Source: Sediminicoccus sp. KRV36 (GTDB lineage Bacteria > Pseudomonadota > Alphaproteobacteria > Acetobacterales > Acetobacteraceae). From it: a DNA stretch of 64,000 nucleotides. This document shows positions 1-12,267 of the stretch, one piece after another. The notes under the pieces were generated by a model. The model did not search any database, was not told the DNA's origin, and saw only the letters and a program-made list of their open reading frames with translations. The first letter of the stretch is position 1. Each line of letters starts with the position of its first letter. The stretch covers positions 3,989,001-4,053,000 of the forward strand of contig NZ_CP085081.1 of NCBI RefSeq assembly GCF_023243115.1, written 5' to 3'. The translations under genes were made by a program, and so were the position numbers.

Positions 1-803
1 GCCCCAGCTTCGCCCCTGCCCTGATGCTCCTGGCCGATACATTGGCCGAGGGCGAGCGCCTGGATGCCGCGCGCGAAACCCTGCTGCTGATCAACGAGAA
101 TGACCCGCTTTTCGGCCCCGCGCAGCTGCGCCAGGCAGCCCTGCTGGACCGCCTGGGCCGCGTGGATGAGGCCGAGGCCCTGCTGCGCCGCCTGGCCGAG
201 GCGCTGCCCGGCGTGCCACAGCCCCTCACTCGCCTGGGCGATCTGCAACGCCGGCGCGGCCGCTTCGCCGAGGCGGTGCTGGCCTATGACGGGGCCATCG
301 CGCGCAGCCTGCCGGCACGGCCGAGCGACTGGCCGCTTTTTTACGCGCGCGGCATCTCGCGCGAGCGTTCGGGCAATTGGCCGGGCGCCGAGGAGGATCT
401 GCTGTATGCGCTGACCCTCTCGCCCGAGCAGCCCTTCGTGCTCAACTACCTTGCCTATACCTGGGCCGATATGGGCGTGAACCTGGAGCGCGCGCGGGCC
501 ATGCTGGAAGGTGCGGCGGCGCAGCGCCCGCAGGATGGCAACATCGCCGACAGCCTGGGCTGGGTGCTGTTCCGCATGGGCCTGCTGCCGGCCGCCATCG
601 CGCAGCTGGAACGCGCGGTGGAGCTGGAACCGCGCAACGCCACGATCAACGACCATCTGGGCGATGTCTACTGGGCCGCGGGGCGCGAGGGCGAGGGGCG
701 CTTCCAGTGGCAGCGCGCGCTCACCATGGACCCGGAGCCGGCCGAGGCCGCGCGCATCCAGATGAAGATCGACACCGGCCTGCCCCGGGCCGTGCGGCGC
801 TGA
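1..803 (+). CDS. Tetratricopeptide-repeat protein, 3' part
   Basis: The open frame enters from before base 1 and stops at 803, so only the C-terminal ~267 residues are present. Seen: several 34-residue TPR-like helices, for example the stretch that reads [14 protein letters not shown] and the following [16 protein letters not shown] and [12 protein letters not shown] units. TPR proteins of this type act as protein-protein scaffolds. In alphaproteobacteria a long TPR protein commonly precedes ispE, and here only one base separates the two genes, so they are probably co-transcribed. No enzymatic motif is visible and the partner is unknown. Confidence 0.85.
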
Positions 804-804
804 C

Positions 805-1656
805 ATGCGCCACATGACGGAGGCCGCGCCGGCCAAGGTGAACCTGTTCCTGCATGTCACCGGCCGGCGCGGCGATGGCTATCATCTGCTGGACAGCCTG
901 GCCGTGTTCGGCCCCGCCGCCGATGCCCTGAGCGCCACGCCAGCCGAGGCGCTGAGCCTGACGCTGGCTGGCCCCTTCGGCGCGACCCTCGCGGCCGAGC
1001 AGGATAATCTCGTGCTGCGCGCAGCCCGCGCCCTGGCCGCCGCGACGGGCCAGGCGCCGGCCGCGGCGCTGCATCTGGAGAAGCATCTGCCGGTGGCTTC
1101 GGGCATTGGTGGCGGCTCAGCCGATGCGGCGGCGGCGCTGCGCCTGCTCAACCGGCTTTGGGGCAGCGGCCTGGATGCCGATGCCCTCGCGCGGATCGCG
1201 GCACCGCTGGGCGCGGATATCCCGGTCTGCATCGCCTCCCGCCCCGCCCGCATGCAGGGCATTGGCGAGGTGATCAGCGCCGCGCCAGCCCTGCCCGAAT
1301 GCGGCTTGCTGCTGGTCAATCCGCGCGTGCCGGTGGCCACACCCGCCGTGTTTCGCGCGCGGCAGGGCGCCTTTTCCACGCCCGCCCCATTGCCGCAGGC
1401 CTGGCCGGATGCGGCCAGCATGGCGGCAGACCTCCTGCGGCTTCACAATGATCTTGAGGCGCCAGCCCTGCTGCTATGCCCCGTGATCGCCGAGGTGCTG
1501 GCCGCCTTGCGCGCAACGCCCGGCTGCCTGCTGGCACGGATGAGCGGCTCCGGCGCCACATGCTTCGGCCTGTTTGCCACTGCGGCCGCGGCCCGTGCCG
1601 CCGCTGAAAACATGCCGCGCGATTGGTGGGCCATCGGCGGCGCGCCCTGCGCTTGA
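805..1656 (+). CDS. ispE: 4-diphosphocytidyl-2-C-methyl-D-erythritol kinase (IspE)
   Basis: Cytoplasmic GHMP-family kinase of the MEP isoprenoid pathway, phosphorylating CDP-methylerythritol at the 2-hydroxyl with ATP. Seen: the N-terminal substrate motif [18 protein letters not shown], the GHMP glycine-rich phosphate loop [16 protein letters not shown] near residue 95, and the C-terminal motif [12 protein letters not shown]. At 283 residues it has the usual family length. A second in-frame ATG lies three codons downstream (814) and could be the true start. It follows the TPR gene by one base. Confidence 0.95.
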
Positions 1657-1706
1657 CGGGCTGCCCGCTTCAGCCTCAGCCTTCGCGCAACCCGAAGGAG
1701 CCTGCC

Positions 1707-2744
1707 ATGATCCTCGCATCCCGCCGCACCCTCCTCACCGCCGCTGCGCTCTGCGCCCCATGGGTGACCAGCCGCGCGCAATCCGCCGGCACGCTGACCG
1801 TGGTGCTCAACCAGGGCCTGCTGGCACGGCTCTGGATTGACGAGTTGCACCCGGTGTTCGAGCGCGAGACCGGGGCGCGGCTGAATGTGCAGCAATCGGT
1901 CACGGGCAATATGCTCGGCATGCTGCGCACCCAGCGCGACAATCCGCCCGACCTCATGCAGTTCTCGGAAGCGGGTGTCTTCTCCGCCGCGCAGGCCGGA
2001 TTGCTGCGCGCGCACAACCCCGCGAACATCCCCAACTGGGCGAGCCTGCGCGATGCCTTCAAGCTGGCCGACAACTACTCGGCCGGCGTCATTGATGCCG
2101 TGCACACGCTCTATTTCAACACGCGCGCCCAGACGACGCAGCCCACTTCCTGGGCGCAGCTCTGGGACGCTTCCTCGCGCCGGCGCGTGGCCATTCCGCC
2201 CATCACCTGGAACAGCGGCGTCCGGATGGTGACGACGGCGGCGCAGATCGCCACCGGCAAACCCTTCGCCGAAGCGCAGCGCGACCTTGATGCCGGGATC
2301 CGGCACCTCGCCCGCCTCAAGGAGAACGGCGCCATCGCCTATACCAGCGCGCCACAGGCCATCCAGATGCTGCAATCGGGCCAGGTCCCGCTGGTGCCCT
2401 TCTATGGCATCTTCATCAACCCGATCATCGAGCAGGGTGCGCCCATCAAGCCCGCCGTGCCGCTCGCCGAGGGCATTCATGGCGAGATCGTCGGCCTCAA
2501 CATGCCGGTCAACGCGAAGAATGTGGAACTGGCCGAGCGCTATGTGAACATGAGCCTCTCGCGCGAGTTCCAGAGCAAGATTGACAGCGTGCTGCACGCC
2601 CGCGCCGCCAACAAGGACGTGAATCCCTCGCCGCGCACGATCGAGCTGCTCGGCCCGGCGGAGAACATCCTCTATGCTGATTGGCGCTTCCTCTCCGAGC
2701 AGCGCGCGCGGCTGACCGATGCCTGGAACAACGTGTTCGGCTGA
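1707..2744 (+). CDS. ABC transporter periplasmic solute-binding protein (PotD-like)
   Basis: First gene of an importer operon. The start at 1707 is preceded by the ribosome-binding sequence GAAGGAG at 1694-1700; an upstream in-frame ATG at 1623 would overlap ispE and lacks a signal peptide. The N-terminus reads RRTLLTAAALCAPW, a twin-arginine-like signal, with cleavage likely after SRAQ. The body resembles type 2 periplasmic binding proteins of the polyamine/iron class, with TLTVVLNQGLLARLWIDEL as first strand. The ligand cannot be read from sequence. Because nitrile hydratase-like genes follow in the same operon, a nitrile, amide or thiocyanate-related compound is an inference worth testing. 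The stop overlaps the next start (TGATG). Confidence 0.85.
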   Translation: MILASRRTLLTAAALCAPWVTSRAQSAGTLTVVLNQGLLARLWIDELHPVFERETGARLNVQQSVTGNMLGMLRTQRDNPPDLMQFSEAGVFSAAQAGLLRAHNPANIPNWASLRDAFKLADNYSAGVIDAVHTLYFNTRAQTTQPTSWAQLWDASSRRRVAIPPITWNSGVRMVTTAAQIATGKPFAEAQRDLDAGIRHLARLKENGAIAYTSAPQAIQMLQSGQVPLVPFYGIFINPIIEQGAPIKPAVPLAEGIHGEIVGLNMPVNAKNVELAERYVNMSLSREFQSKIDSVLHARAANKDVNPSPRTIELLGPAENILYADWRFLSEQRARLTDAWNNVFG

Positions 2745-3604
2745 TGCAGGGGGCTTCCCCACGCCTCACCGGGCTCCTGCTGCTCGCGCCGGCACTGATC
2801 TTCCTCGCGGTCTTCTACCTGGTGCCGCTGGGCAGCATGGTCGAGGAAAGCCTGCGCTCCTCGGCAGCCGATCTCGACCCACGGCCCGGGCTGAGCCTCT
2901 CTCAGTTCGAGCGTGTCTGGGGCTCGGGCCGGTCCTGGCGGGCGCTGGAGCGGACGGTGCGGATGTCGGCCATCTCGACGCTGCTCACGCTGCTGATCGC
3001 CTATCCGATCGCGCTGTTCCTGTTCCAGGTTCGGCCGCTGTGGCGCACCGCGATCCTGATCACCGTCTTCGTCTCGCTCGCGTCCAGCCTCATCGTGCGC
3101 AACTACGGCTGGCTGGTGACGCTGGCCGATGCGGGGCCGGTCAACCAGCTTCTGCTGGCGCTCGGCCTGACGGAGGAGCCGCTGCGCCTCGTCTATAGCG
3201 AGGGTGCGACCATCGTGGCGCTGGTGCATTACGCCCTGCCCTTCATGATCCTGCCCATCTATGGCGCGCTGACCCGCATTCCGCCCTCCTATATCGAGGC
3301 CGCGCAATCGCTGGGGGCGGGGCCATGGCGCGCCCTTTTCGGAACCGTGCTGCCGCTTTCCATGCCGGGCATCTTCGGCGGCACCACGCTGAGCTTCGCC
3401 ATCTGCATGAGCGCCTTCGTCACACCGCTGATGCTGGGTTCACCGGCCACGGCGATGATCAGCCAGGTGGCCGCGGAGCAATTCCTCATTCAGCTGAACT
3501 TCCCCTTCGGCTCGGCGATGATCGTGGCGCTGACCCTCGTCACCTTCGGCATCCTGCTGGCCTATACGCTGATCATCCGCATGCTGTTCCGCCACCATGC
3601 CTGA
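2744..3604 (+). CDS. ABC transporter permease, PotB/PotH type
   Basis: Inner-membrane permease of about 286 residues with six hydrophobic segments, beginning GLLLLAPALIFLAVFYLVPLG. The binding-protein-dependent transport EAA loop is visible near YIEAAQSLGAGPWRALFGTVLPLS, which contacts the ATPase. The start at 2744 shares one base with the stop of the binding-protein gene (TGATG), indicating translational coupling. The 3' end overlaps the second permease by eight bases. Confidence 0.92.
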   Translation: MQGASPRLTGLLLLAPALIFLAVFYLVPLGSMVEESLRSSAADLDPRPGLSLSQFERVWGSGRSWRALERTVRMSAISTLLTLLIAYPIALFLFQVRPLWRTAILITVFVSLASSLIVRNYGWLVTLADAGPVNQLLLALGLTEEPLRLVYSEGATIVALVHYALPFMILPIYGALTRIPPSYIEAAQSLGAGPWRALFGTVLPLSMPGIFGGTTLSFAICMSAFVTPLMLGSPATAMISQVAAEQFLIQLNFPFGSAMIVALTLVTFGILLAYTLIIRMLFRHHA

Positions 3605-4397
3605 CGCGAAGGGCTTCCGCGCCGTGGTGGCGCTGCTGGCCACACTGGGCCTGGCCTTCCTGGTCTTTCCCGTGATCTTCACCGGCGTCGTCGCCTTTGG
3701 CGGCTCCATCTTCATCGAATTTCCGCCGCAGAGTTTCTCGTTGCGCTGGTTCGAGAATATCGGGCGCATCAACCGCATCTGGGACGCGACGCTGACGAGC
3801 CTGTATATCGGCCTGCTCACCGCGGCCATCGCCACCGCCATGGGGGCCGCCGCGGCGCTGGCGCTGGTGCGCAGCCCCCTGCCGGCCAAGGCCGTGCTGA
3901 CCTCCCTGCTGCTCTCGCCCATCGCGCTGCCCATCGTCGCCATCGGCATCGCGCTCATCCAGTTCTTCATCCTGCTGGGGGTCGCCTTCACCTGGTGGAG
4001 CCTGGTCATCGGCCATGTGGTGCTGGTGGTGGCCTATCCCGTGCGGACGGTGGCCGCGGCCCTCACCCTCTCCAACCCCGCGCTGGAGGAGGCCGCGGGT
4101 TCGCTCGGCGCCTCGCCCTGGCAGGTTTTCCGCACGGTGACGCTGCCGCAGATGGCACCAGGCCTGGTCAGTGGCTTCCTCTTCGCTTTCCTCATCAGCT
4201 TCGACAACTACCCGATCAGCGTGTTCCTCGTGCGCGGCGATCTGACCACGCTGCCGATCGAGCTGTTCAACTACATCAGCCAGAATCTGGACCCGACGCC
4301 GGCTGCCTTCTCCTCCGCCTATGTCGCCATCATCGCGACGCTGATCCTGCTGGCCGAGCGGCGCTGGCGGATCATCTCCCTCTCCATCCCCCGCTGA
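3597..4397 (+). CDS. ABC transporter permease, PotC/PotI type
   Basis: Second inner-membrane subunit, 266 residues, six predicted membrane spans beginning VVALLATLGLAFLVFPVIF. The EAA loop is EEAAGSLGASPWQVFRTVTL. It overlaps the first permease by eight bases and is followed by the ATPase gene after nine bases containing GAGG. Pairing of two dissimilar permeases is typical of polyamine/opine/Fe-type importers. Confidence 0.92.
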   Translation: MPDAKGFRAVVALLATLGLAFLVFPVIFTGVVAFGGSIFIEFPPQSFSLRWFENIGRINRIWDATLTSLYIGLLTAAIATAMGAAAALALVRSPLPAKAVLTSLLLSPIALPIVAIGIALIQFFILLGVAFTWWSLVIGHVVLVVAYPVRTVAAALTLSNPALEEAAGSLGASPWQVFRTVTLPQMAPGLVSGFLFAFLISFDNYPISVFLVRGDLTTLPIELFNYISQNLDPTPAAFSSAYVAIIATLILLAERRWRIISLSIPR

Positions 4398-4406
4398 GGA
4401 GCGCGC

Positions 4407-5468
4407 ATGGCCCGGCTTGAGCTCGATCGCGTTGCGGTGACATTGGGCGGCAATCGCGTGCTGCACGGCGTCAGCCTGGATGTGGCGGATGGCGAATGCG
4501 TGGCGCTGCTGGGACCCTCGGGCTGCGGCAAGACGACCACCCTGCGCGCCATCGCGGGCTTCACGCCGGTGGCCTCGGGCGAAATCCGCATCGCCGGGCA
4601 TTCCGTGCTGGGGCTGCCGCCGCACAAGCGCAATCTGGGCCTGGTGTTCCAGGACTACGCGCTGTTTCCGCACATGAATGTCGCGCAGAATATCGGCTAT
4701 GGCCTGCGCATGCGCGGCGTGGATCGCGGCACCATTGCCAAGCGGGTCGAGGAAGCACTGAGCCTGGTGCGCCTGGACGAGATGGCTGAGCGCTTTCCCG
4801 CACGGCTCTCCGGCGGGCAGCGCCAGCGCGTGGCACTCGCCCGCGCGCTGGTGATCAAGCCGGATATCCTGCTGCTGGACGAACCCCTGGGCGCCCTGGA
4901 CCGCAAGCTGCGCGATGCGATGCAGGTGGAACTCAAACGCATCCATCGCGAGGTGGGGGTCACCACCATCATCGTGACGCATGACCAGGAGGAGGCGCTG
5001 TCCCTTGCGGACCGCGTCGCCGTCATGTTCGCGGGCGATATCCGCGAGGTGGACAAGCCGGCCCAACTCTATGCCCGCCCGCGCAGCCGCGCGGTCATGG
5101 ATTTCCTCGGCGAAGCGAATTTCCTGCCCGCCGACGTGACGGCGGAAGCCCTGCTTCGCCTGCCTGGCGGCGCCCTGCTTGGCCTGCCGGATGGCACCGC
5201 CACCACGCCGCGCCCCATGCGCATCGGCATCCGCCCGGAGCATATGCTGATCCTGGCCGAAGCCGGCTCCGGCAGCATTCCGGCGCGGGTGCTGGAAATC
5301 GTCTATAAGGGCGCGCATGCCGCACTCTATGCGCAAGGGCCGGAGGGACTGTCGCTCTCGGCCAGCCTGCCCGCCGGCGATCTGGCGGCGCCGCCGGTGA
5401 TCGGTGACACTGTGCATCTGCGCCCCGATCCGGCGCGAATGATCCTGTTCGAGGAGAATGCGCCATGA
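4407..5468 (+). CDS. ABC transporter ATP-binding protein, PotA type
   Basis: Cytoplasmic ATPase energising the importer, 353 residues. Seen: Walker A GPSGCGKTT around residues 35-43, Q-loop in VFQDYALFPHM, signature [15 protein letters not shown], Walker B ILLLDEPLGALD, and switch histidine in TIIVTHDQEEA. A C-terminal TOBE-like region carries GIRPEHM. The last four bases (ATGA, 5465-5468) are shared with the start of the first hydratase gene, which places importer and enzyme on one transcript. Confidence 0.95.
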   Translation: MARLELDRVAVTLGGNRVLHGVSLDVADGECVALLGPSGCGKTTTLRAIAGFTPVASGEIRIAGHSVLGLPPHKRNLGLVFQDYALFPHMNVAQNIGYGLRMRGVDRGTIAKRVEEALSLVRLDEMAERFPARLSGGQRQRVALARALVIKPDILLLDEPLGALDRKLRDAMQVELKRIHREVGVTTIIVTHDQEEALSLADRVAVMFAGDIREVDKPAQLYARPRSRAVMDFLGEANFLPADVTAEALLRLPGGALLGLPDGTATTPRPMRIGIRPEHMLILAEAGSGSIPARVLEIVYKGAHAALYAQGPEGLSLSASLPAGDLAAPPVIGDTVHLRPDPARMILFEENAP

Positions 5469-5788
5469 CCAGCGAACGCGCCATGCACGATATTGGCGGC
5501 CTTGATCTCGGCCCGATTGACCGCAGTGAGCACCCGCGCACGCTCTACGAATTGCGCGTCGATGCCATCCTCATGCTGCTCACCAGCCCTGGCTGCGGCG
5601 CCTTCAAGGTGGATGCGCTGCGCCGCGCCATCGAGGAATTCTCCCAGGATGACTATGACCACCTGCCCTATTACGACCGCTGGCTGCAGGCGCTGACCAA
5701 CCTGCTGGTCGAGCAGCAGGTGCTGAACCGCGCCGAGATTGACGCCCGCGTGGCAATGATCACGGAGGAACTCGCCCATGAGCATTGA
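5465..5788 (+). CDS. Nitrile hydratase beta subunit N-terminal half / thiocyanate hydrolase beta-like subunit
   Basis: A 107-residue protein corresponding to the helical N-terminal half of nitrile hydratase beta. Seen: the entry motif MHDIGG followed by LGPI, and the segment YYDRWLQALTNLLVEQQVL, equivalent to the family's YYxxWLxALExLLVExGVL. The SH3-like C-terminal half is encoded by the next gene, so the beta chain is split. Known: thiocyanate hydrolase has the same three-chain plan with separate N-half, C-half and alpha-like chains. Alternative: a P14K-type activator, which shares this fold, but the N-terminal GG motif fits a structural subunit better. It overlaps the ATPase gene by 4 bases and the next gene by 11. 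Confidence 0.8.
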   Translation: MTSERAMHDIGGLDLGPIDRSEHPRTLYELRVDAILMLLTSPGCGAFKVDALRRAIEEFSQDDYDHLPYYDRWLQALTNLLVEQQVLNRAEIDARVAMITEELAHEH

Positions 5789-6068
5789 GCAGCGCTTCCA
5801 GCCCGGTGCGCGGGTGCGCGTGGCAAGCCGCAAGCCGCAGGGCCATTGCCGCACGCCCTTTTATCTGCGTGGCCATCGTGGCGTGGTGCAGGCCTGTGCC
5901 GGCCGCTTCCATGACCCGACGCAACTGGCGCAACACCGGCCCGGCCTGCCCAAGCTGATCCTCTATCGCGTTCGCTTCGCGCATCTCGGCCCGGATGGCC
6001 AGGAAACGCAGGATGAGATCGAAGCCGACATTTACGAAGACTGGCTGGAAAGCGAGGCCGCCGCATGA
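5778..6068 (+). CDS. Nitrile hydratase beta subunit C-terminal half / thiocyanate hydrolase alpha-like subunit
   Basis: A 96-residue SH3-like barrel domain. Seen: FQPGARVRV then GHCRTPFYLRGHRGVV, the arginine-rich stretch whose arginines in the family contact the oxidised cysteines of the metal centre, then LYRVRF and the terminal DIYEDWLES, equivalent to the DLWExYLE ending of beta subunits. The protein lacks the whole N-terminal half, supplied in trans by the preceding gene. It starts inside that gene (11-base overlap) and its stop overlaps the next start (ATGA at 6065-6068). Hydratase versus hydrolase activity is not decided by sequence alone. Confidence 0.85.
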   Translation: MSIEQRFQPGARVRVASRKPQGHCRTPFYLRGHRGVVQACAGRFHDPTQLAQHRPGLPKLILYRVRFAHLGPDGQETQDEIEADIYEDWLESEAAA

Positions 6069-6712
6069 GCACGCCGCATGACCATCATGACCACGATCAC
6101 GACCATGACCACGCACCGATCGAGGAGCATGACGCCCACCCCGGCCCCTTCCAGATTCTTGAACGCGCCGTGCGCGAACTGCTCATCGAGAAGGGCGTCC
6201 TGACGGCCGAGCAGATCACCCGGCAGATCGAGCTCCAGGAAGGCCGCACGCCGGAGCTGGGTGCCAGCGTCATCGCCAAGGCCTGGACCGATCCGGAATT
6301 CCACGCCGCGTTGAAGCACGACGCCCGCGCTGCCGTGGCGAAGCTCGGCATCACCATCCCCGATGCGCCCGAACTCATCGCGCTGGAGAATGAGGAAGGG
6401 CTGCACCACGTCATCGCCTGCACGCTCTGCTCCTGCTATCCGCGCATGCTGCTCGGCGTGCCGCCCGCCTGGTACAAGAGCAAGGCCTATCGCGCGCGCG
6501 TCGTGCTGGACCCGCGCGGCGTGCTCGCGGAATTCGGGCTGACTTTGCCGGAGGAGACGCGCATCCGCGTCGTGGATAGCACGGCCGATCTGCGCTACCT
6601 GGTCATTCCGCGCCGCCCTGCCGGCACGGAAGGCTGGGACGAGGCGCGGCTCGCTGCCCTGGTGACGCGGGATTCCATGATCGGCACCGCTGTTGCGCTG
6701 CCGCCCGAATAG
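6065..6712 (+). CDS. Cobalt-type nitrile hydratase alpha / thiocyanate hydrolase gamma-like subunit with His-rich N-terminus
   Basis: Catalytic chain of 215 residues. The metal-binding motif CTLCSC lies at residues 119-124 (Cys119, Cys122, Ser123, Cys124). The Thr after the first Cys is the signature of non-corrin cobalt rather than iron enzymes. The motif is followed by YPR, where nitrile hydratases normally have a Trp; from memory, thiocyanate hydrolase gamma also has Arg at this place, which favours an anionic substrate. The PPAWYKS segment is conserved. Odd: the first 25 residues hold ten histidines alternating with aspartates (HDHHDHDHDHDH), suggesting metal binding, perhaps cobalt capture. 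No separate activator or cobalt permease gene is nearby. Confidence 0.9.
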   Translation: MSTPHDHHDHDHDHDHAPIEEHDAHPGPFQILERAVRELLIEKGVLTAEQITRQIELQEGRTPELGASVIAKAWTDPEFHAALKHDARAAVAKLGITIPDAPELIALENEEGLHHVIACTLCSCYPRMLLGVPPAWYKSKAYRARVVLDPRGVLAEFGLTLPEETRIRVVDSTADLRYLVIPRRPAGTEGWDEARLAALVTRDSMIGTAVALPPE

Positions 6713-6715
6713 GGC

Positions 6716-7141
6716 TCAGCCCACCGGTGCGCCGATCGCTTCCAGCGCATGGCGCGCCACCTCCATATCCTCGGAGTAATGGCCGCCGCTGATGCCGATT
6801 GCGCCGATCATCTGCCCCTCCTCCATCACCGGATAGCCGCCGCCGAAGATGATCAGGCGCGGGGTATGGGTGATGCCATGCAGCAAGGGCGGATCATTCT
6901 TGATGAAATCCCACCAGACATGGGTGGGAATGCCAAAGGACGTCGCCGTCCAGGCCTTGTCCTGCGCGATCTGCACCGTCAGGTGGCCAGCGCCATCCAT
7001 GCTGTGAAAGCCCTTCAACTGCCCCGCCTCATTCACGATGGCGATGGACATGGCCTTGTCCATCTCGCGCGATTTCTCGATGGCGGCGGCGATCAGCTTC
7101 TGCGCCGTCTCGGCATCCATGCTGCGCTTGATGATGCTCAT
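6716..7141 (-). CDS. GlcG/HbpS family haem- or cofactor-binding protein
   Basis: A 141-residue single-domain protein. Seen: the family's central pattern AIVNEAGQLKGFHSMDGA and the C-terminal glycine-rich loop FGGGYPV with GAIGISGGHYSEDMEVA. Members include GlcG of glycolate operons and haem-binding HbpS; the biochemical role is generally unclear. The start at 7141 has GAGGAG just upstream. It lies 24 bases after the flavin oxidoreductase gene on the same strand and is probably co-transcribed with it. It converges on the hydratase operon with only three bases between stops. Confidence 0.85.
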   Translation of the reverse strand: MSIIKRSMDAETAQKLIAAAIEKSREMDKAMSIAIVNEAGQLKGFHSMDGAGHLTVQIAQDKAWTATSFGIPTHVWWDFIKNDPPLLHGITHTPRLIIFGGGYPVMEEGQMIGAIGISGGHYSEDMEVARHALEAIGAPVG

Positions 7142-7165
7142 GTGGCTCTCCTCGGGGTGGGGTGA

Positions 7166-9148
7166 TCAGATGGCGCGGGCGGCGACCTGCGCCTCGACCA
7201 GCGCGTGATGGACGCGGCGCGGGGCGAAGGCATCGCCGATCAGGTGGATGCGCTCCTGCCCCGCCTCGCGCAGCTCGGCCTGGAGGCCGTTGCGCGCGCG
7301 CTGCGCACCGACCCAGAGCAGCCCGGCGCAATCCTCGATGCGGATTTCACGCCCGGTGAGGTAGTGGCGCAGCACCACCGCACCGCGTTCGATGCGATGC
7401 GCCTCCATGGAGGTGTGATGCTGCACTCCCGCCTGGTCCAAGGCGCGCAGCGTCGCGATGCGCGAGACCATGGGCAGTTCGCGCAGGGGCTCGAAGAAGC
7501 GGGTGGCGAGCACCATCTGCCCACCCCGCGCTGACGCCAGCGCGGCAGCGGCCTCGGCCACGGCCGCGGCCCAGAAATACCCATCCTCATCCATCAGCAC
7601 GAGACGCTTGACCGGCACGGTGCGGAACCGCGCAAGCTCCCGCACCGAGGCGGCGGCGATGAGCGGCACGCTGCCGTCGCTGGGCAGGGATGGCGTCACG
7701 GGCTCGGCGCCCGTCGCCAGGATCACCGCATGGGGTTTTTGCGCCAGGATGGCCGATGCCGTCGCGCGCGCGCCGAGGTGGATCTCCACCCCCAGGCGCT
7801 GCAGATGGCCGATCTGGAATTCGGTGAGGTGCCGTAATTCGGCGCCATGCGCGAAGGCCGCGGCTTCGGCGAATTTTCCGCCCAGAAAGGAATCCTGCTC
7901 GATCAGCGAGACGCGCATGCCACGCTCCGCCGCCACGCGCGCGGCCTCCATGCCGCCCGGACCGCCACCGACCACGATGACCCGATGCGGCTGCGCCCGC
8001 TTGAGCTTGCCGAAATGATGCTCCCGCCCCGCCAGGGGGTTGGTGGCACAGCCAATGGGCTCGGCCGAGGAAATCCAGTCCCAGCATTGGTTGCAGGCGA
8101 TGCATCGGCGGATTTCATGCGCGCGCCCGCTGGCCGCCTTGTTCGGCCATTCGGGGTCCACGATCAGCGCGCGGCAGAGGCCCACCATGTCCCCATCGCC
8201 CGAGGCGATGATGGATTCCGCCTGCTCGGGCGTCTGGATGCGCGTGCTTTGCACCACCACCGTAGCCTCGCCCACGGCGCGCTTCACCTCGGCCTGGATG
8301 GCGCGATAGGCGGTTTGCGGCCAATGGCGATCGGGCAGATGCGTCTCGATCGTGTTGAAATTGCCCTGGCTGAGCGAGACGTAGTCACAAAGCCCGGCAG
8401 CGGCCAAACGGGCGGCGATCTCGCAGGCCTGGGCGACATCCACGCCGCCCTCGGTGAATTCCTCCACCGCCATGCGATAGCCGAGGATGGCGCGATGACC
8501 GAGGCGCCGGCGCACGCCCTGCAGGATCTCGGTCGGGAAGCGCAGCCGGTTTTCCAGGCTGCCGCCGTAGCGATCGTCGCGCGCGTTACTATACGGCGAG
8601 ACGAATTGTCCGATCAAATGTCCCTGGGCGCCATGCACTTCGACGCCATCCGCGCCGGCTTCGCGGGCATGAAGTGCCGCGGTGACGAAGCATTCCACCA
8701 TCTCCTCCACCTCGCGCGTGGTCATCGCGTGGGGTGTGCCGCCGCTGCGCGGGCAGGCGATGGCGGAGGGCGCAAGCAGCGTGCCGACGCGCCGCCCCAG
8801 ATGCTGCCGCCCGCCGTGATTGAGCTGCATGATGAACAGGCCGCCCGCCTGCTGCGTTGCTTCCGTGATGCGGCGAAGGCCAGGGATCACGCCCCGGTCG
8901 AACAGCGGAATCGCTGCAGGAACCACGGAATCCGCGGGGTGTAGCCGGGCCGACTCACTGACGATCACGCCAGCGCCGCCCTGAGCCACCGTGGTGTAGA
9001 AGGCGAGCATTCGCTCGCCCACGCGGTTCTTCTCGGCGAGGTTCGATGTGGTGGCGACGCGCATGACGCGGTTGCGTGCCACCACCGGTCCGATGCGGAT
9101 GGGAGAAAAAAGCTTCGGGAAAACCTGGTTCTGCATCTCGCTCGGCAT
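7166..9148 (-). CDS. NADH:flavin oxidoreductase / FAD-dependent fusion (2,4-dienoyl-CoA reductase-like)
   Basis: About 660 residues with two parts. The N-terminal old-yellow-enzyme TIM barrel binds FMN (LFSPIRIGP start; the EVHGAQGHLIGQF catalytic segment; NRLRFPTEI). A cysteine cluster CIACNQC then a further Cys eleven residues later should bind a 4Fe-4S cluster. The C-terminal half has a Rossmann FAD motif VVGGGPGGMEAARVAAERG. This architecture is that of 2,4-dienoyl-CoA reductase FadH and trimethylamine dehydrogenase; the substrate is not evident. Start uncertain: 9148 has GGAGG twelve bases upstream; 9190 and 9136 are alternatives. It is divergent from tctB. Confidence 0.88.
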   Translation of the reverse strand: MPSEMQNQVFPKLFSPIRIGPVVARNRVMRVATTSNLAEKNRVGERMLAFYTTVAQGGAGVIVSESARLHPADSVVPAAIPLFDRGVIPGLRRITEATQQAGGLFIMQLNHGGRQHLGRRVGTLLAPSAIACPRSGGTPHAMTTREVEEMVECFVTAALHAREAGADGVEVHGAQGHLIGQFVSPYSNARDDRYGGSLENRLRFPTEILQGVRRRLGHRAILGYRMAVEEFTEGGVDVAQACEIAARLAAAGLCDYVSLSQGNFNTIETHLPDRHWPQTAYRAIQAEVKRAVGEATVVVQSTRIQTPEQAESIIASGDGDMVGLCRALIVDPEWPNKAASGRAHEIRRCIACNQCWDWISSAEPIGCATNPLAGREHHFGKLKRAQPHRVIVVGGGPGGMEAARVAAERGMRVSLIEQDSFLGGKFAEAAAFAHGAELRHLTEFQIGHLQRLGVEIHLGARATASAILAQKPHAVILATGAEPVTPSLPSDGSVPLIAAASVRELARFRTVPVKRLVLMDEDGYFWAAAVAEAAAALASARGGQMVLATRFFEPLRELPMVSRIATLRALDQAGVQHHTSMEAHRIERGAVVLRHYLTGREIRIEDCAGLLWVGAQRARNGLQAELREAGQERIHLIGDAFAPRRVHHALVEAQVAARAI

Positions 9149-9270
9149 GGGCCGGAGCACCCTCCATTTTGGCGGAGCAGACCACGACAAATACTTCCGG
9201 ACAAGTCGCTTGCCGAGCGCGCCCCGATGCTCAATGCTCTCGGCCGCACAGGATCGCGACGGGAGACGGG

Positions 9271-9738
9271 ATGGCTGCCCTCAACATCGGTTTGAGCCTC
9301 TTCTGGGTCCTCTTCGGCCTCGCGCTGGCGCAGCAATCCCTGGCACTTGGTCTGGGCGGGCCGGGCGGGCCGGGCTCCGGCCTCTTCCCGCTGCTTTCGG
9401 CCCTGCTGATCATCATGGGTGGTGCCGGCGTGCTGCTGCGCGATCTGCGACGCGCCGGCCCGAATGAGGAACTGGCCGAGCGCTTCTGGATGGCGCGCGG
9501 CGCGGCACTTCGCGTCGGGCTGCTGATCCTGGTGATGACGGGCATGATCCTCGCCGTGCCATCGCTTGGCTTCGCGCTGTCGGGCGCCATCGGGCTGCCC
9601 TTGCTGTTCCGCACCATCGCGCCGCATTCGCCCTGGTGGTTCGCGCTGCTGGTCGGCGCGGTGGCGGCGGCCATCGTGCATCTGCTCTTCGCGGTCCTGC
9701 TCGGCACGCCCTTGCCGCGCGGGCCGCTGGGCTTCTGA
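9271..9738 (+). CDS. tctB: Tripartite tricarboxylate transporter small membrane subunit (TctB family)
   Basis: A 155-residue four-span membrane protein. Seen: hydrophobic N-terminus LFWVLFGLALAQQSLAL, the family's glycine-proline loop GGPGGPGSGLFPLL, then paired spans near the C-terminus. With TctA it forms the secondary transporter fed by a TctC-type binding protein. The start at 9271 follows GGGAG at 9261-9265 and removes an implausible hydrophilic extension. The tctA start lies four bases after the stop. Confidence 0.85.
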   Translation: MAALNIGLSLFWVLFGLALAQQSLALGLGGPGGPGSGLFPLLSALLIIMGGAGVLLRDLRRAGPNEELAERFWMARGAALRVGLLILVMTGMILAVPSLGFALSGAIGLPLLFRTIAPHSPWWFALLVGAVAAAIVHLLFAVLLGTPLPRGPLGF

Positions 9739-9742
9739 GCCG

Positions 9743-11245
9743 ATGGAAGCGAGCCTCCTTGCCCTCTCCGGCGGCTTTGCCGCCATCCTGACACCGGGCA
9801 CGCTCTACTACATTTTCATCGGCAGCCTGATCGGCACACTGATCGGCGTGCTGCCCGGCATCGGCCCCCTGGCCGCGCTTTCGCTGCTGCTGCCAGCGAC
9901 GATCGCGCTGCCGCCGGTCGCTGCCATCGCCATGCTGTCGGCGATTTTCTATGGCTCCATGTATGGCGGCTCGATCACCTCCATCCTGGTGAATATCCCG
10001 GGTGAGGCCGCTTCCGTCGTCACCTGCCTGGATGGCCATGCCATGGCCAAGCAGGGGCGCGCGGGGGCGGCGCTGGGCATGGCGGCGCTTGGCTCCTTCT
10101 TCGCCGGCACCTTCGGCATCGTGATCCTCACCTTCTTCTCGCCGGCCCTCAGCGGCTTCGCCATTCGCCTCGGCCCGCCCGAATATTGCGCGCTGATGGT
10201 GCTGGGCCTCGTTTGCACCATCCTCATGATCCAGGGCTCGGCGCTGAAGGGCATGATCATGATCGGCCTCGGCGCTGCCTTCGCGACGCAGGGGATGGAT
10301 GTGGTGAGCGGCGAGTTCCGCTTCACCTTCAACACCATCGAACTGACCGCGGGGATCGAGTTGATCGCCGTGGTGATCGGCCTGTTCGGCGTCTCGGAAA
10401 TCCTGACCAATGTGGAGCAATCGGCACCCGGGCTCTCCATCAAGACGAAGCTGCGCAACCTCTGGCCCTCACGCGCCGATTGGGCGGCGAGCTGGGCGCC
10501 CATCCTGCGCGGCAGCGGCCTTGGCTTCGCGGTGGGGCTGGTGCCGGGCGGCGGGCCGGTCACGGCCTCCTTCCTCTCCTACGCGGCCGAGCGGCGCATC
10601 GCGAAAGACCCCTCCAGCTTCGGCCAGGGTCGGATCGAGGGCGTGGCCGGCCCCGAGGCCGCGAACAACGCCGCCGTCTCCAGCGGGATGATTCCGCTGC
10701 TCTCCCTCGGCATTCCCGGCAATGCGGTGACGGCGCTGCTGATGGGCGCGCTCATCATCAATGGCGTGCAGCCCGGCCCCATGCTGATCGTGGAGAACCC
10801 GCAGATCTTCTGGGGCGTGGTGGCGAGCCTCTATGTCGGCAACGTGTTCCTGCTGATCCTGAACCTGCCGCTGGTGGGGCTTTGGGTGCAGTTGCTGCGG
10901 GTGCCTTATTCCGTGCTGTTCCCCACCATCGTGCTGCTCGCGATGGTGGGCACCTATTCGGCCAATCGCAACATCTTCGACCTTTGGGTGATGCTGGGCT
11001 TCGGCGTGCTGGGCTGGTTCCTGCGCAAGCTCGGCTATGAGCTGGCGCCGCTGGTGCTGGCCTTCGTGCTGGCGCCGCTGCTCGAACAATCGCTGCGGCA
11101 ATCCATGGTCATGTCGCCCGACGGGGCGATGATTTTTCTCGCACGCCCGGTCGCCGCGACCCTCATGGTCGCCTCGGCGCTGCTGCTGCTCTTCGTGGCC
11201 TTCAAGGGCCGCGCGGCCACAACACAACCAGGAGGATCATCATGA
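9743..11245 (+). CDS. tctA: Tripartite tricarboxylate transporter large permease (TctA family)
   Basis: A 500-residue polytopic inner-membrane protein with about twelve spans. Seen: the hallmark N-terminal motif GTLIGVLPGIGPLAALSLLLP, the SMYGGSITSILVNIPGE segment, and the second half's GLVPGGGPVTASFLSYAAE, which repeats the glycine-rich motif. The start at 9743 directly follows the tctB stop. The stop is fused to the start of the binding-protein gene (ATGA, 11242-11245). Confidence 0.95.
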   Translation: MEASLLALSGGFAAILTPGTLYYIFIGSLIGTLIGVLPGIGPLAALSLLLPATIALPPVAAIAMLSAIFYGSMYGGSITSILVNIPGEAASVVTCLDGHAMAKQGRAGAALGMAALGSFFAGTFGIVILTFFSPALSGFAIRLGPPEYCALMVLGLVCTILMIQGSALKGMIMIGLGAAFATQGMDVVSGEFRFTFNTIELTAGIELIAVVIGLFGVSEILTNVEQSAPGLSIKTKLRNLWPSRADWAASWAPILRGSGLGFAVGLVPGGGPVTASFLSYAAERRIAKDPSSFGQGRIEGVAGPEAANNAAVSSGMIPLLSLGIPGNAVTALLMGALIINGVQPGPMLIVENPQIFWGVVASLYVGNVFLLILNLPLVGLWVQLLRVPYSVLFPTIVLLAMVGTYSANRNIFDLWVMLGFGVLGWFLRKLGYELAPLVLAFVLAPLLEQSLRQSMVMSPDGAMIFLARPVAATLMVASALLLLFVAFKGRAATTQPGGSS

Positions 11246-12267
11246 ACATCACCCGCCGCGGCTTCACCGCCGGCGCCGCCATGCTGCCCTTCGCAGCGCC
11301 CTTCGCCGCTCAGGCCCAGGACGCTGCGGTGCGCGCCCGGCTTAACGCCATCAAGCCCGCCGGCTTTCCGCGTGACCCGATCGAGATGACGGTGGTCTAT
11401 CCGGCCGGTGGCGGCATGGATATCACCGCCCGCGTGGTGCAGCGCTTCTTTGAACGCGCAACTGGCGAGCGCAGCCTGGTGAACAACCGCACCGGTGGCG
11501 CCGGGCTGGTGGGCCACACCTGGCTTGCCACACAGGCGCCGGCCGATGGTCATGCCGTCGGCATCGTGGCGAACCTGATCTTCTCCGATGCGGTGCGCTC
11601 GCAAGGCCGCTGGAGCTGGACCGATCTCGATCACATCGCCCATATCAACGCAGAGCCGCTGAACCTCGTCGTGAATGCGGAGGGGCCGTTCAAGACAGGC
11701 GGCCTGCAGGGCATCCTGGATGCGGCGAAGGCGCGGCCTGGCACCATCCGGGTACTGAATGTTCCGGGCGGCTATTACGAGTATCTGATCGAGCAGCTGG
11801 AAGCCGCCGCCGGCGCGCGCTTCCTGCGCGTGCCTTTCCAGGGCGGCGCCCCCGGCATCACGGCGCTGCTCGGCAACAATATCGATCTCGGCTTTGGCTT
11901 CTACGCGGAAGTGCGCGGGCACCTGGCCGCCAATCGCCTGCTGCCCATCGCCGTCACCGGGCGGGAGCGCACCGTCTTCCTGCCCGATGCGCCCACGGTG
12001 AACAGCGTGACCGGGCGCACGGATGTCAATTGGGGCGTCTCGCGCTGGGTGGCGCTGCCCAAGGCCGTGCCGGCCGATCGCAAGGCGTGGCTTGCCGCCG
12101 CCTTCCAGGCGGCCCTGGCGGACCCCGATGCGGTGCAGGAGTTCCGCAACCTCGGCGCCCTGCCCAACCCCGCCCTGGATACGCCAGCCAAGGTCGCCGC
12201 CGATGTCGCGGTCATGGCCGAGGCGGAGCGTGAATTCCTCATCCGCAGTGGCCGGATGCAGCGCTGA
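11242..12267 (+). CDS. tctC: TTT-system periplasmic binding protein (Bug/TctC family)
   Basis: A 341-residue periplasmic protein that delivers a carboxylate-type ligand to TctAB. The signal peptide begins MNITRRGFTAGAAMLPF and probably ends after AAQAQ; the Arg pair suggests Tat export. Bug features: MTVVYPAGGGMDITARVVQRF near residues 45-65 and NNRTGGAGLVGH. Compared with ordinary Bug proteins it has an extra ~15 residues before the first strand. Overlaps at both ends (ATGA and TGATG) place it inside a seven-gene operon, so its ligand is likely a substrate of the enzymes that follow. Confidence 0.92.
   Translation: MNITRRGFTAGAAMLPFAAPFAAQAQDAAVRARLNAIKPAGFPRDPIEMTVVYPAGGGMDITARVVQRFFERATGERSLVNNRTGGAGLVGHTWLATQAPADGHAVGIVANLIFSDAVRSQGRWSWTDLDHIAHINAEPLNLVVNAEGPFKTGGLQGILDAAKARPGTIRVLNVPGGYYEYLIEQLEAAAGARFLRVPFQGGAPGITALLGNNIDLGFGFYAEVRGHLAANRLLPIAVTGRERTVFLPDAPTVNSVTGRTDVNWGVSRWVALPKAVPADRKAWLAAAFQAALADPDAVQEFRNLGALPNPALDTPAKVAADVAVMAEAEREFLIRSGRMQR

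Follow-up and report, generated by a model that had tools for sequence, protein, structure and literature searches.

A stretch of 64,000 nucleotides from Sediminicoccus sp. KRV36 (the window) carries, at 1707-6712 of the + strand, seven co-directional genes that join an ABC importer to a three-chain enzyme of the nitrile hydratase (NHase) type. The locus raises the question whether importer and enzyme serve one compound, and which compound this might be. An earlier note had read the block as a unit for uptake and hydrolysis, with thiocyanate as its lead substrate.

All seven open reading frames of that note were confirmed on the + strand: a solute-binding protein (SBP), two permeases, an ATPase, the N-half and C-half of the beta chain (beta-N, beta-C) and alpha (Table 1). 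The junctions, in gene order, are -1, -8, +9, -4, -11 and -4 bases. Five of them overlap; the claim that the block has no gaps fails at the third junction, missing from the earlier list, where 9 bases separate permease 2 from the ATPase gene. The ATG at 1707 was taken as the start of the SBP gene and 2744 as that of permease 1; the list of open reading frames opens the SBP frame at an upstream TTG (1623) and has a longer upstream start for permease 1. An Rfam search of window positions 1-12000 gave no match, and a scan of 1500-7300 for promoters and terminators, uninformative in itself, found none.

Table 1. Features of the importer-enzyme block and the evidence for each (window coordinates).
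Feature	Position	Strand	Basis
AAGGAG ribosome-binding-like site ahead of the SBP gene	1695-1700	+	sequence
SBP, signal-like N-terminus	1707..2744	+	SBP_bac_11/6/1
ABC permease 1 (PotB/PhnU-like), TGATG overlap with SBP gene	2744..3604	+	BPD_transp_1
ABC permease 2 (PotC/PhnV-like), 8-base overlap with permease 1	3597..4397	+	BPD_transp_1
ABC ATPase with TOBE domain, preceded by 9-base gap	4407..5468	+	ABC_tran + TOBE_2
beta-N chain (NHase_beta_N), ATGA overlap with ATPase gene	5465..5788	+	PF21006, 61.8 bits
Leu-Arg-Arg of beta-N, first Arg aligning with the conserved NHase beta Arg	5618..5626	+	alignment
beta-C chain (NHase_beta_C), 11-base overlap	5778..6068	+	PF02211, 64 bits
His-Cys-Arg of beta-C, Cys before the conserved Arg	5844..5852	+	alignment; signature of unit clade and sister pair
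alpha chain (NHase_alpha), His/Asp-rich N-terminus, ATGA overlap	6065..6712	+	PF02979, 255.3 bits
CTLCSCYPR of alpha, Co-type cysteine motif then Tyr-Pro-Arg	6419..6445	+	sequence

Orthologues of the SBP (at least 63% identity) are present in 14 genomes; the window protein is 63-92% identical to copies from 12 other genomes, and the copy in G312 is a broken open reading frame. A search for conserved neighbourhoods, proposed in the earlier note, showed that the three enzyme genes follow the importer in the same order in 11 of the 14 genomes, in one of them (G629) as inferred across a contig break. Since most of these loci were found via the SBP, this count gives the share of importers that have the enzyme behind them and says nothing about the share of such enzymes that have an importer. 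The seven-gene order recurs in three other families and in two genomes of the same genus, four families in all, and the overlap of the permease genes is present in 14/14 genomes compared. Compared with the two same-genus genomes, dN/dS is 0.06-0.26 for each of the seven genes, which together with the recurring gene order argues that the block is not a product of chance. Among plasmids, 342 records contained an SBP match, none reaching 60% identity, and the alpha matches listed had at most 61.5% identity.

In a concatenated tree of 75 rows the nine importer-linked enzymes form one clade (support 99/92), and an importer is present for all nine; in a tree of alpha alone they do not come out as a single clade (3 changes). 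CTLCSC, YYxxW and the two NHase-type beta arginines are kept in 9/9 of these unit rows. The cysteine before the conserved beta-C arginine occurs in 11 of 148 beta-C rows, namely the nine unit rows and the sister pair of their clade (L036 and L042). In this sister pair a TctC receptor gene lies directly upstream of the enzyme.

The idea that split-beta enzymes are generally coupled to importers was considered and rejected. When loci were drawn by alpha search alone, co-directional ABC- or SBP-type matches within 1.5 kb accompanied 2 of 49 split-beta rows, one of these two ABC matches being exporter-like, and 7 of 62 fused-beta rows. Among these nine rows, L074, L091 and L153 are not importer-like as judged by length and start sequence; L136 is importer-like.

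With its SBP, two permeases and TOBE-domain ATPase the window importer resembles PotABCD and PhnSTUV-type importers, but it stays below the cut-offs of the Pot and Phn models listed: 23.3 bits for PotD (cut-off 582), 149.8 for PotB, the best NCBIfam match of permease 1 (348), 118.6 for PotC (326) and 325.1 for the potA subfamily model (355.6), with all Phn models listed likewise under theirs. The earlier label of a polyamine-class importer therefore holds for the superfamily and not for these curated families. No relative of the SBP with a known ligand came to light at useful similarity. The resemblance to PotABCD and Phn would suit a block in which importer and enzyme are transcribed together yet act on different compounds, the importer taking up, for example, a polyamine- or phosphonate-like solute or supplying the metal. 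So would G524, G431 and G630, which keep the importer with neither enzyme nor clear remnant at the site, showing that the importer can persist alone. We nevertheless regard separate compounds as unlikely: four families preserve the order and linkage, every one of the nine clade enzymes is accompanied by the importer, and in the sister pair a receptor of another type occupies the corresponding position.

The enzyme shares its fold family, Co motif and conserved beta arginines with two-subunit Co-type NHases (PDB 3qxe, 1v29, 4ob1), which differ in having a fused beta chain, mostly YPW and mostly a separate activator-like gene. Among fused-beta rows 63/72 have YPW and 68/72 have a separate activator-like beta-N gene in the vicinity, whereas the window has two half-chain genes in place of a single beta gene; YPR occurs in 61 of 74 split-beta rows and YPW in none. 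Split beta with YPR thus marks a large lineage, far wider than thiocyanate hydrolase. In the alpha tree, the second check proposed earlier, a branch with support 100 parted the window alpha from 71 fused-beta rows and 3 references, setting the split-beta, Co-motif, YPR enzyme apart from ordinary two-subunit NHases. The alpha chain does not lie deep within the latter and the importer linkage is conserved, the two points on which the earlier note had staked its reading. The curated alpha model TIGR01323 is narrowly missed by the window (241.5 bits, cut-off 249.85); other unit copies fall on both sides of the cut-off (G304 256.5, G540 242.4).

The CTLCSC motif followed by YPR, remarked on earlier because nitrile hydratases usually have YPW there, was confirmed in alpha. 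Thiocyanate hydrolase (SCNase, PDB 2dd4), presumably that of Thiobacillus thioparus, shares the split beta in the order beta-N, beta-C, alpha, and its gamma chain (2dd4_C) carries the same Co motif and YPR; it also lies on the same side of the support-100 alpha branch as the window. The TIGR03887 model for the SCNase gamma subunit, however, gave 194.3 bits for the window against a cut-off of 291.45, and the SCNase reference forms with three SCNase-like rows (L224, L113 and L115) a clade of its own, support 100, that leaves the window outside. A loop before the Cys motif, seen in 2dd4_C, L113 and L224, is absent from the window and from the eight other unit rows. The Arg after YP in gamma and the Arg before the conserved beta Arg are what we take to be the pocket arginines of SCNase. 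The first is present in the window; the second is Leu (LRR in 9/9 unit rows, RRR in the SCNase reference). Thiocyanate hydrolase was therefore dropped as the default identity, and such a hydrolase fed by a thiocyanate importer appears quite improbable to us. Of the earlier reading the conserved importer-enzyme unit stands, and thiocyanate as its favoured substrate does not.

ToyK and ToyL are presumably the beta halves of TNHase. This enzyme (ToyJKL, Streptomyces rimosus) is named as a three-subunit NHase together with ScNHase of Streptomyces canus, whose genes run <anhD><anhE><anhA>, two partial beta chains then alpha, with no activator gene (PMC7329996). We read the description there as making AnhD the N-half of beta. 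The gene order seen earlier as the layout of SCNase was confirmed, and it is equally that of ScNHase. In the window, too, two separate beta-half genes precede alpha. PF21006 has three matches in the genome, all of them beta-N genes of three-chain sets, one per set, and the model detects 3/3 activator-type genes tried as controls, so no separate activator gene is evident. Going by the published description, gene layout and absence of an activator gene match three-subunit NHases such as ScNHase; no importer is mentioned for ScNHase or TNHase in the passages of PMC7329996 consulted. None of the titles or abstract openings of the literature matches listed describes an importer coupled to a nitrile hydratase, which does not establish the absence of such a system from print. 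The comparison also took in parts of PMC7329996, PMC10098168, PMC8567248, PMC12625717, PMC9800807 and PMC3511329.

Elsewhere in the same genome there is a second importer/three-chain unit, with an upstream importer of a different, NMT1 type; different receptor classes thus adjoin related enzymes, here and at the TctC-bearing sister pair. Its SBP has five matches in four genomes; two of these matches (L244 and L245) have no such enzyme alongside. Next to this second unit lies a gene for biuret amidohydrolase (427.1 bits against a cut-off of 370), which suggests N-cyano substrates. Such an N-cyano hydratase would turn N-C#N compounds (cyanourea, cyanoguanidine, N-cyano amino acids) into N-carbamoyl compounds, to be cleaved by isochorismatase-type hydrolases. 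In line with this, the second-unit type in G304 adjoins BiuH (421.4 bits) and allophanate hydrolase (776.8 bits, cut-off 511.05), and downstream of the window-type unit of G540 comes a gene of the isochorismatase family, with N-carbamoylsarcosine amidohydrolase as its best relative among solved structures. A similar gene, by start sequence, follows the unit in G640 and G642. Acetamiprid and thiacloprid carry N-cyano groups. ScNHase has been applied to both (PMC7329996). On the other side, Pfam and curated models detected no isochorismatase- or biuret-type hydrolase adjoining the unit in the window itself, the second unit's enzyme falls in a clade other than the window's in the concatenated tree, no BiuH-like gene was noted beside the second-unit type in G543 (start sequences), and G540, G640 and G642 belong to one genus. 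A literature search for dicyandiamide with nitrile hydratase gave no match. We consider N-cyano hydration by the window enzyme rather doubtful. Equally tentative is a wider proposal: importer-fed three-chain YPR-type cobalt enzymes would be N-cyano hydratases (N-C#N to N-CO-NH2) served by importers of different families and finished by biuret- or N-carbamoyl-hydrolases, the genome would hold at least two such nitrogen-scavenging routes, the seven-gene unit being one of them, and the beta-C Cys would mark that unit's substrate type.

The reading that we favour, and hold to be reasonably probable, is a self-contained cassette for uptake and hydration of a small organic nitrile (C-CN or N-CN). 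From the genes we infer a single substrate for importer and enzyme, and a nitrile as that substrate. Captured by the SBP on the outer side of the inner membrane, it would be brought in by the permeases and the ATPase, and a predicted cobalt enzyme of beta-N, beta-C and alpha would hydrate it; the resulting amide (or ureido compound) would serve as a source of nitrogen or carbon. Since no separate activator gene is evident, beta-N probably helps to load cobalt into alpha, by analogy with AnhD in ScNHase. In the cyn cluster, too, an ABC importer and an enzyme acting on a small cyano-type compound are encoded together, namely the CynABD cyanate importer and the cyanase CynS (PMC8567248); the enzyme there is unrelated and the compound is cyanate, not a nitrile.

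Two consequences follow for the enzyme family. Because split beta and YPR extend well beyond SCNase, neither YPR nor the beta-N/beta-C/alpha order alone is a safe basis for calling a gene a thiocyanate hydrolase. To our knowledge, what nitrile hydratases act on in the cell is mostly unknown. An SBP inherited with the enzyme offers a direct biochemical handle, its ligand being the best candidate for the natural substrate, and since the block recurs in other bacterial families, the importer is a handle on the natural substrate of the enzyme family.

Seven open reading frames, all in one direction, occupy the importer-enzyme unit (ORF calls on the sequence), with the Pfam order solute-binding protein (SBP), permease, permease, ATPase with TOBE domain, NHase_beta_N, NHase_beta_C and NHase_alpha. 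The junctions measure -1, -8, +9, -4, -11 and -4 bases; the overlapping run described in the earlier note thus holds, apart from one small gap (+9 bases) where it had claimed none. All seven genes show dN/dS values of 0.06-0.26 (simple Nei-Gojobori) between this genome and either of two same-genus genomes, G1071 and G1102. The gene preceding the unit is ispE-like by our reading. In G1071 and G1102, the gene convergent to alpha is instead TctC receptor-like (Pfam for G1071 only).

Location of the unit, its neighbours and related gene sets
Feature	Location	Orientation	Content
Gene before unit	window 805-1656		GHMP-kinase domains; unit begins ~50 bases downstream
Seven-gene unit	window 1707-6712		importer and three-chain enzyme
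HbpS-like gene (Pfam)	window 6716-7141	convergent	unit ends before it
Genes beside unit	window 6716-11245		OYE-like oxidoreductase, TctB/TctA, HbpS-like
Second unit, own genome (gene calls)	G000:C1 ~2489709-2493519 = L005 8710-12520	minus	importer and three-chain enzyme
Second unit with biuret amidohydrolase gene	L005 8710-13386 = G000:C1 ~2489709-2494385	amidohydrolase gene divergent	
Beta-N/alpha fusion	L054 7551-8561		single ORF
scnC (annotation), Azospirillum ramasamyi plasmid	L224 5027-6669		both beta halves in one ORF
Planktothrix plasmid genes	L229 2211-6567		two SH3-like (beta-half) genes, alpha

The SBP was searched against genome sets that overlap each other. Only its own genome matched in the family set (1/249, limit 1e-30) and the phylum draw (1/398, 1e-40). 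The class set gave 10/385 genomes (1e-30), comprising its own, six at 65-69% identity and three at 29-31%, and the order draw 3/395 (1e-40), its own and two of the same genus at 92-93%; 11 other same-genus genomes listed in that draw had no match at 1e-40. At 1e-60, matches were found in 7/11 genomes of one other family, 3/18 of another and 1/1 of a single-genome set. Pooled over all searches, 14 distinct genomes carry a close orthologue. The importer linkage, for which the earlier note had asked conservation, is retained in ten of these 14 (own, G1071, G1102, G304, G540, G640, G642, G601, G631 and G312) as seven contiguous genes in the same order, the SBP ORF of G312 being interrupted by TAG close to a contig end. 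An additional one, G629, is cut by contig ends, with the SBP at one and the remaining six genes beginning at another contig, which fits a single unit split by assembly. G524, G431 and G630 have the importer without the enzyme, and no clear enzyme remnant was seen at the site after it. In G1071 and G1102 the unit has the same upstream neighbour as in the window; since the surroundings vary from family to family, the unit is probably a transferable cassette.

To place the enzyme, the beta architecture and the residues following CTLCSC were recorded for each of 155 alpha rows taken from the fetched loci. The 74 split-beta rows carry YPR (61), YPV (7) or YPK (6) and never YPW, the 72 fused-beta rows YPW (63), YPF (3), TAF (3), YPV, YPH and YPR (one each). 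The remaining nine, without separate beta pair, are eight beta-N/alpha fusions and L218, in which no beta was found. In the alpha tree (159 rows including four references), a branch with value 100 separates 71 fused rows and three nitrile hydratase (NHase) references from 85 rows, namely the 74 split rows, these nine, L224 and the thiocyanate hydrolase (SCNase) reference. The window alpha therefore stands outside the ordinary NHases, and it is also no member of the separate clade (100) formed by SCNase and three near kin. The nine importer-linked enzymes (unit rows) do not come out as one group in the alpha-only tree (3 changes). In the concatenated three-chain tree (75 rows) they are one clade (99/92), whose sister is the pair L036 and L042 (100/96); the window's exact position within it is weak (90/59). 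G1071 and G1102, fetched later, are absent from both trees.

Other architectures were met among these loci. The beta-N/alpha fusions (L054, L116, L119, L121, L125, L127, L128, L135) have a His/Asp-rich linker and form a clade (98); no beta-C was found in these loci. L112, L207 and L208 are fused-beta NHase-like alphas on a very long branch, with CTLCSCTAF replacing CTLCSCYPW. In the genus of G601, a split-beta clade with YPV (L203, L211, L217, L220-L223) supplies a second three-chain set. L224, annotated as thiocyanate hydrolase gamma, is the sole fused-beta row with YPR and falls in the SCNase clade. The L229 genes immediately follow asparagine synthase, glutathione S-transferase and NADAR genes, and the set looks like a biosynthetic cluster.

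The earlier note had considered thiocyanate as substrate. At the aligned beta-N site all nine unit rows have LRR, whereas the SCNase reference has RRR and PDB 7qom, an NHase beta, has FRI, and the SCNase loop before the Cys motif is missing from 9/9 unit rows. HCR in beta-C occurs in 11/148 rows, the unit rows and L036/L042. The window alpha scores 241.5 against TIGR01323 (cut-off 249.85) and 194.3 against TIGR03887 (cut-off 291.45); by model score it is closer to nitrile hydratase, though above neither cut-off, and by plain identity it is about equally far from NHase alphas (48-51%) and SCNase gamma (48%). With clade, loop, RRR and TIGR03887 cut-off all failing, thiocyanate is an unlikely substrate. 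PDB 3vyg_C, which we take to be a substrate-specificity mutant, has W after YP, unlike 2dd4_C.

The PF21006 matches in the own genome are three beta-N genes, and each of its three three-chain sets holds one of them. As a control, this model recovered 3/3 activator-type genes from fused-beta loci, and 68/72 fused rows have an extra beta-N nearby; no separate activator gene is thus evident in this genome by PF21006 search. The three-subunit nitrile hydratase ScNHase (PMC7329996) is encoded as <anhD><anhE><anhA>, likewise without activator, with AnhD as metal and swapping chaperone. By analogy, beta-N here probably has an AnhD-like chaperone role.

The second unit consists of permease, NMT1-type SBP, ATPase, beta-N, beta-C and alpha (gaps <=13 bases by gene call), an order also found in G304 (L219) and G543 (L243). 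Its SBP gave five matches in 4/308 class genomes (1e-50); the enzyme adjoins three and is absent beside L244 and L245. The third three-chain set (L004) has no importer on its strand, and a Pst-like importer gene set, by start sequence, lies divergent to it. In L036 and L042 the gene immediately before beta-N encodes a TctC-type receptor; receptors of three Pfam families therefore stand beside related three-chain enzymes. A general rule to that effect is countered by the loci from the alpha search only, where such neighbours are rare: 2/49 split-beta rows have a co-directional ABC hit, one being exporter-like.

Sequence searches gave no known-ligand protein at useful similarity to the window SBP. 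In G540, alpha is followed by genes of the PEP-mutase/isocitrate-lyase, isochorismatase (nearest in PDB N-carbamoylsarcosine amidohydrolase) and HupE/UreJ families; the first two also follow in G640 and G642, by start sequence. The own second unit adjoins a biuret amidohydrolase gene, and that of G304 a biuret amidohydrolase and an allophanate hydrolase gene, each above cut-off. These neighbours make N-cyano compounds candidate substrates, a reading we hold doubtful because the window unit has no biuret- or isochorismatase-type hydrolase neighbour. Judged from sequence, the unit is genuine and conserved, and it couples an importer to a three-chain enzyme of the cobalt nitrile hydratase-like kind.
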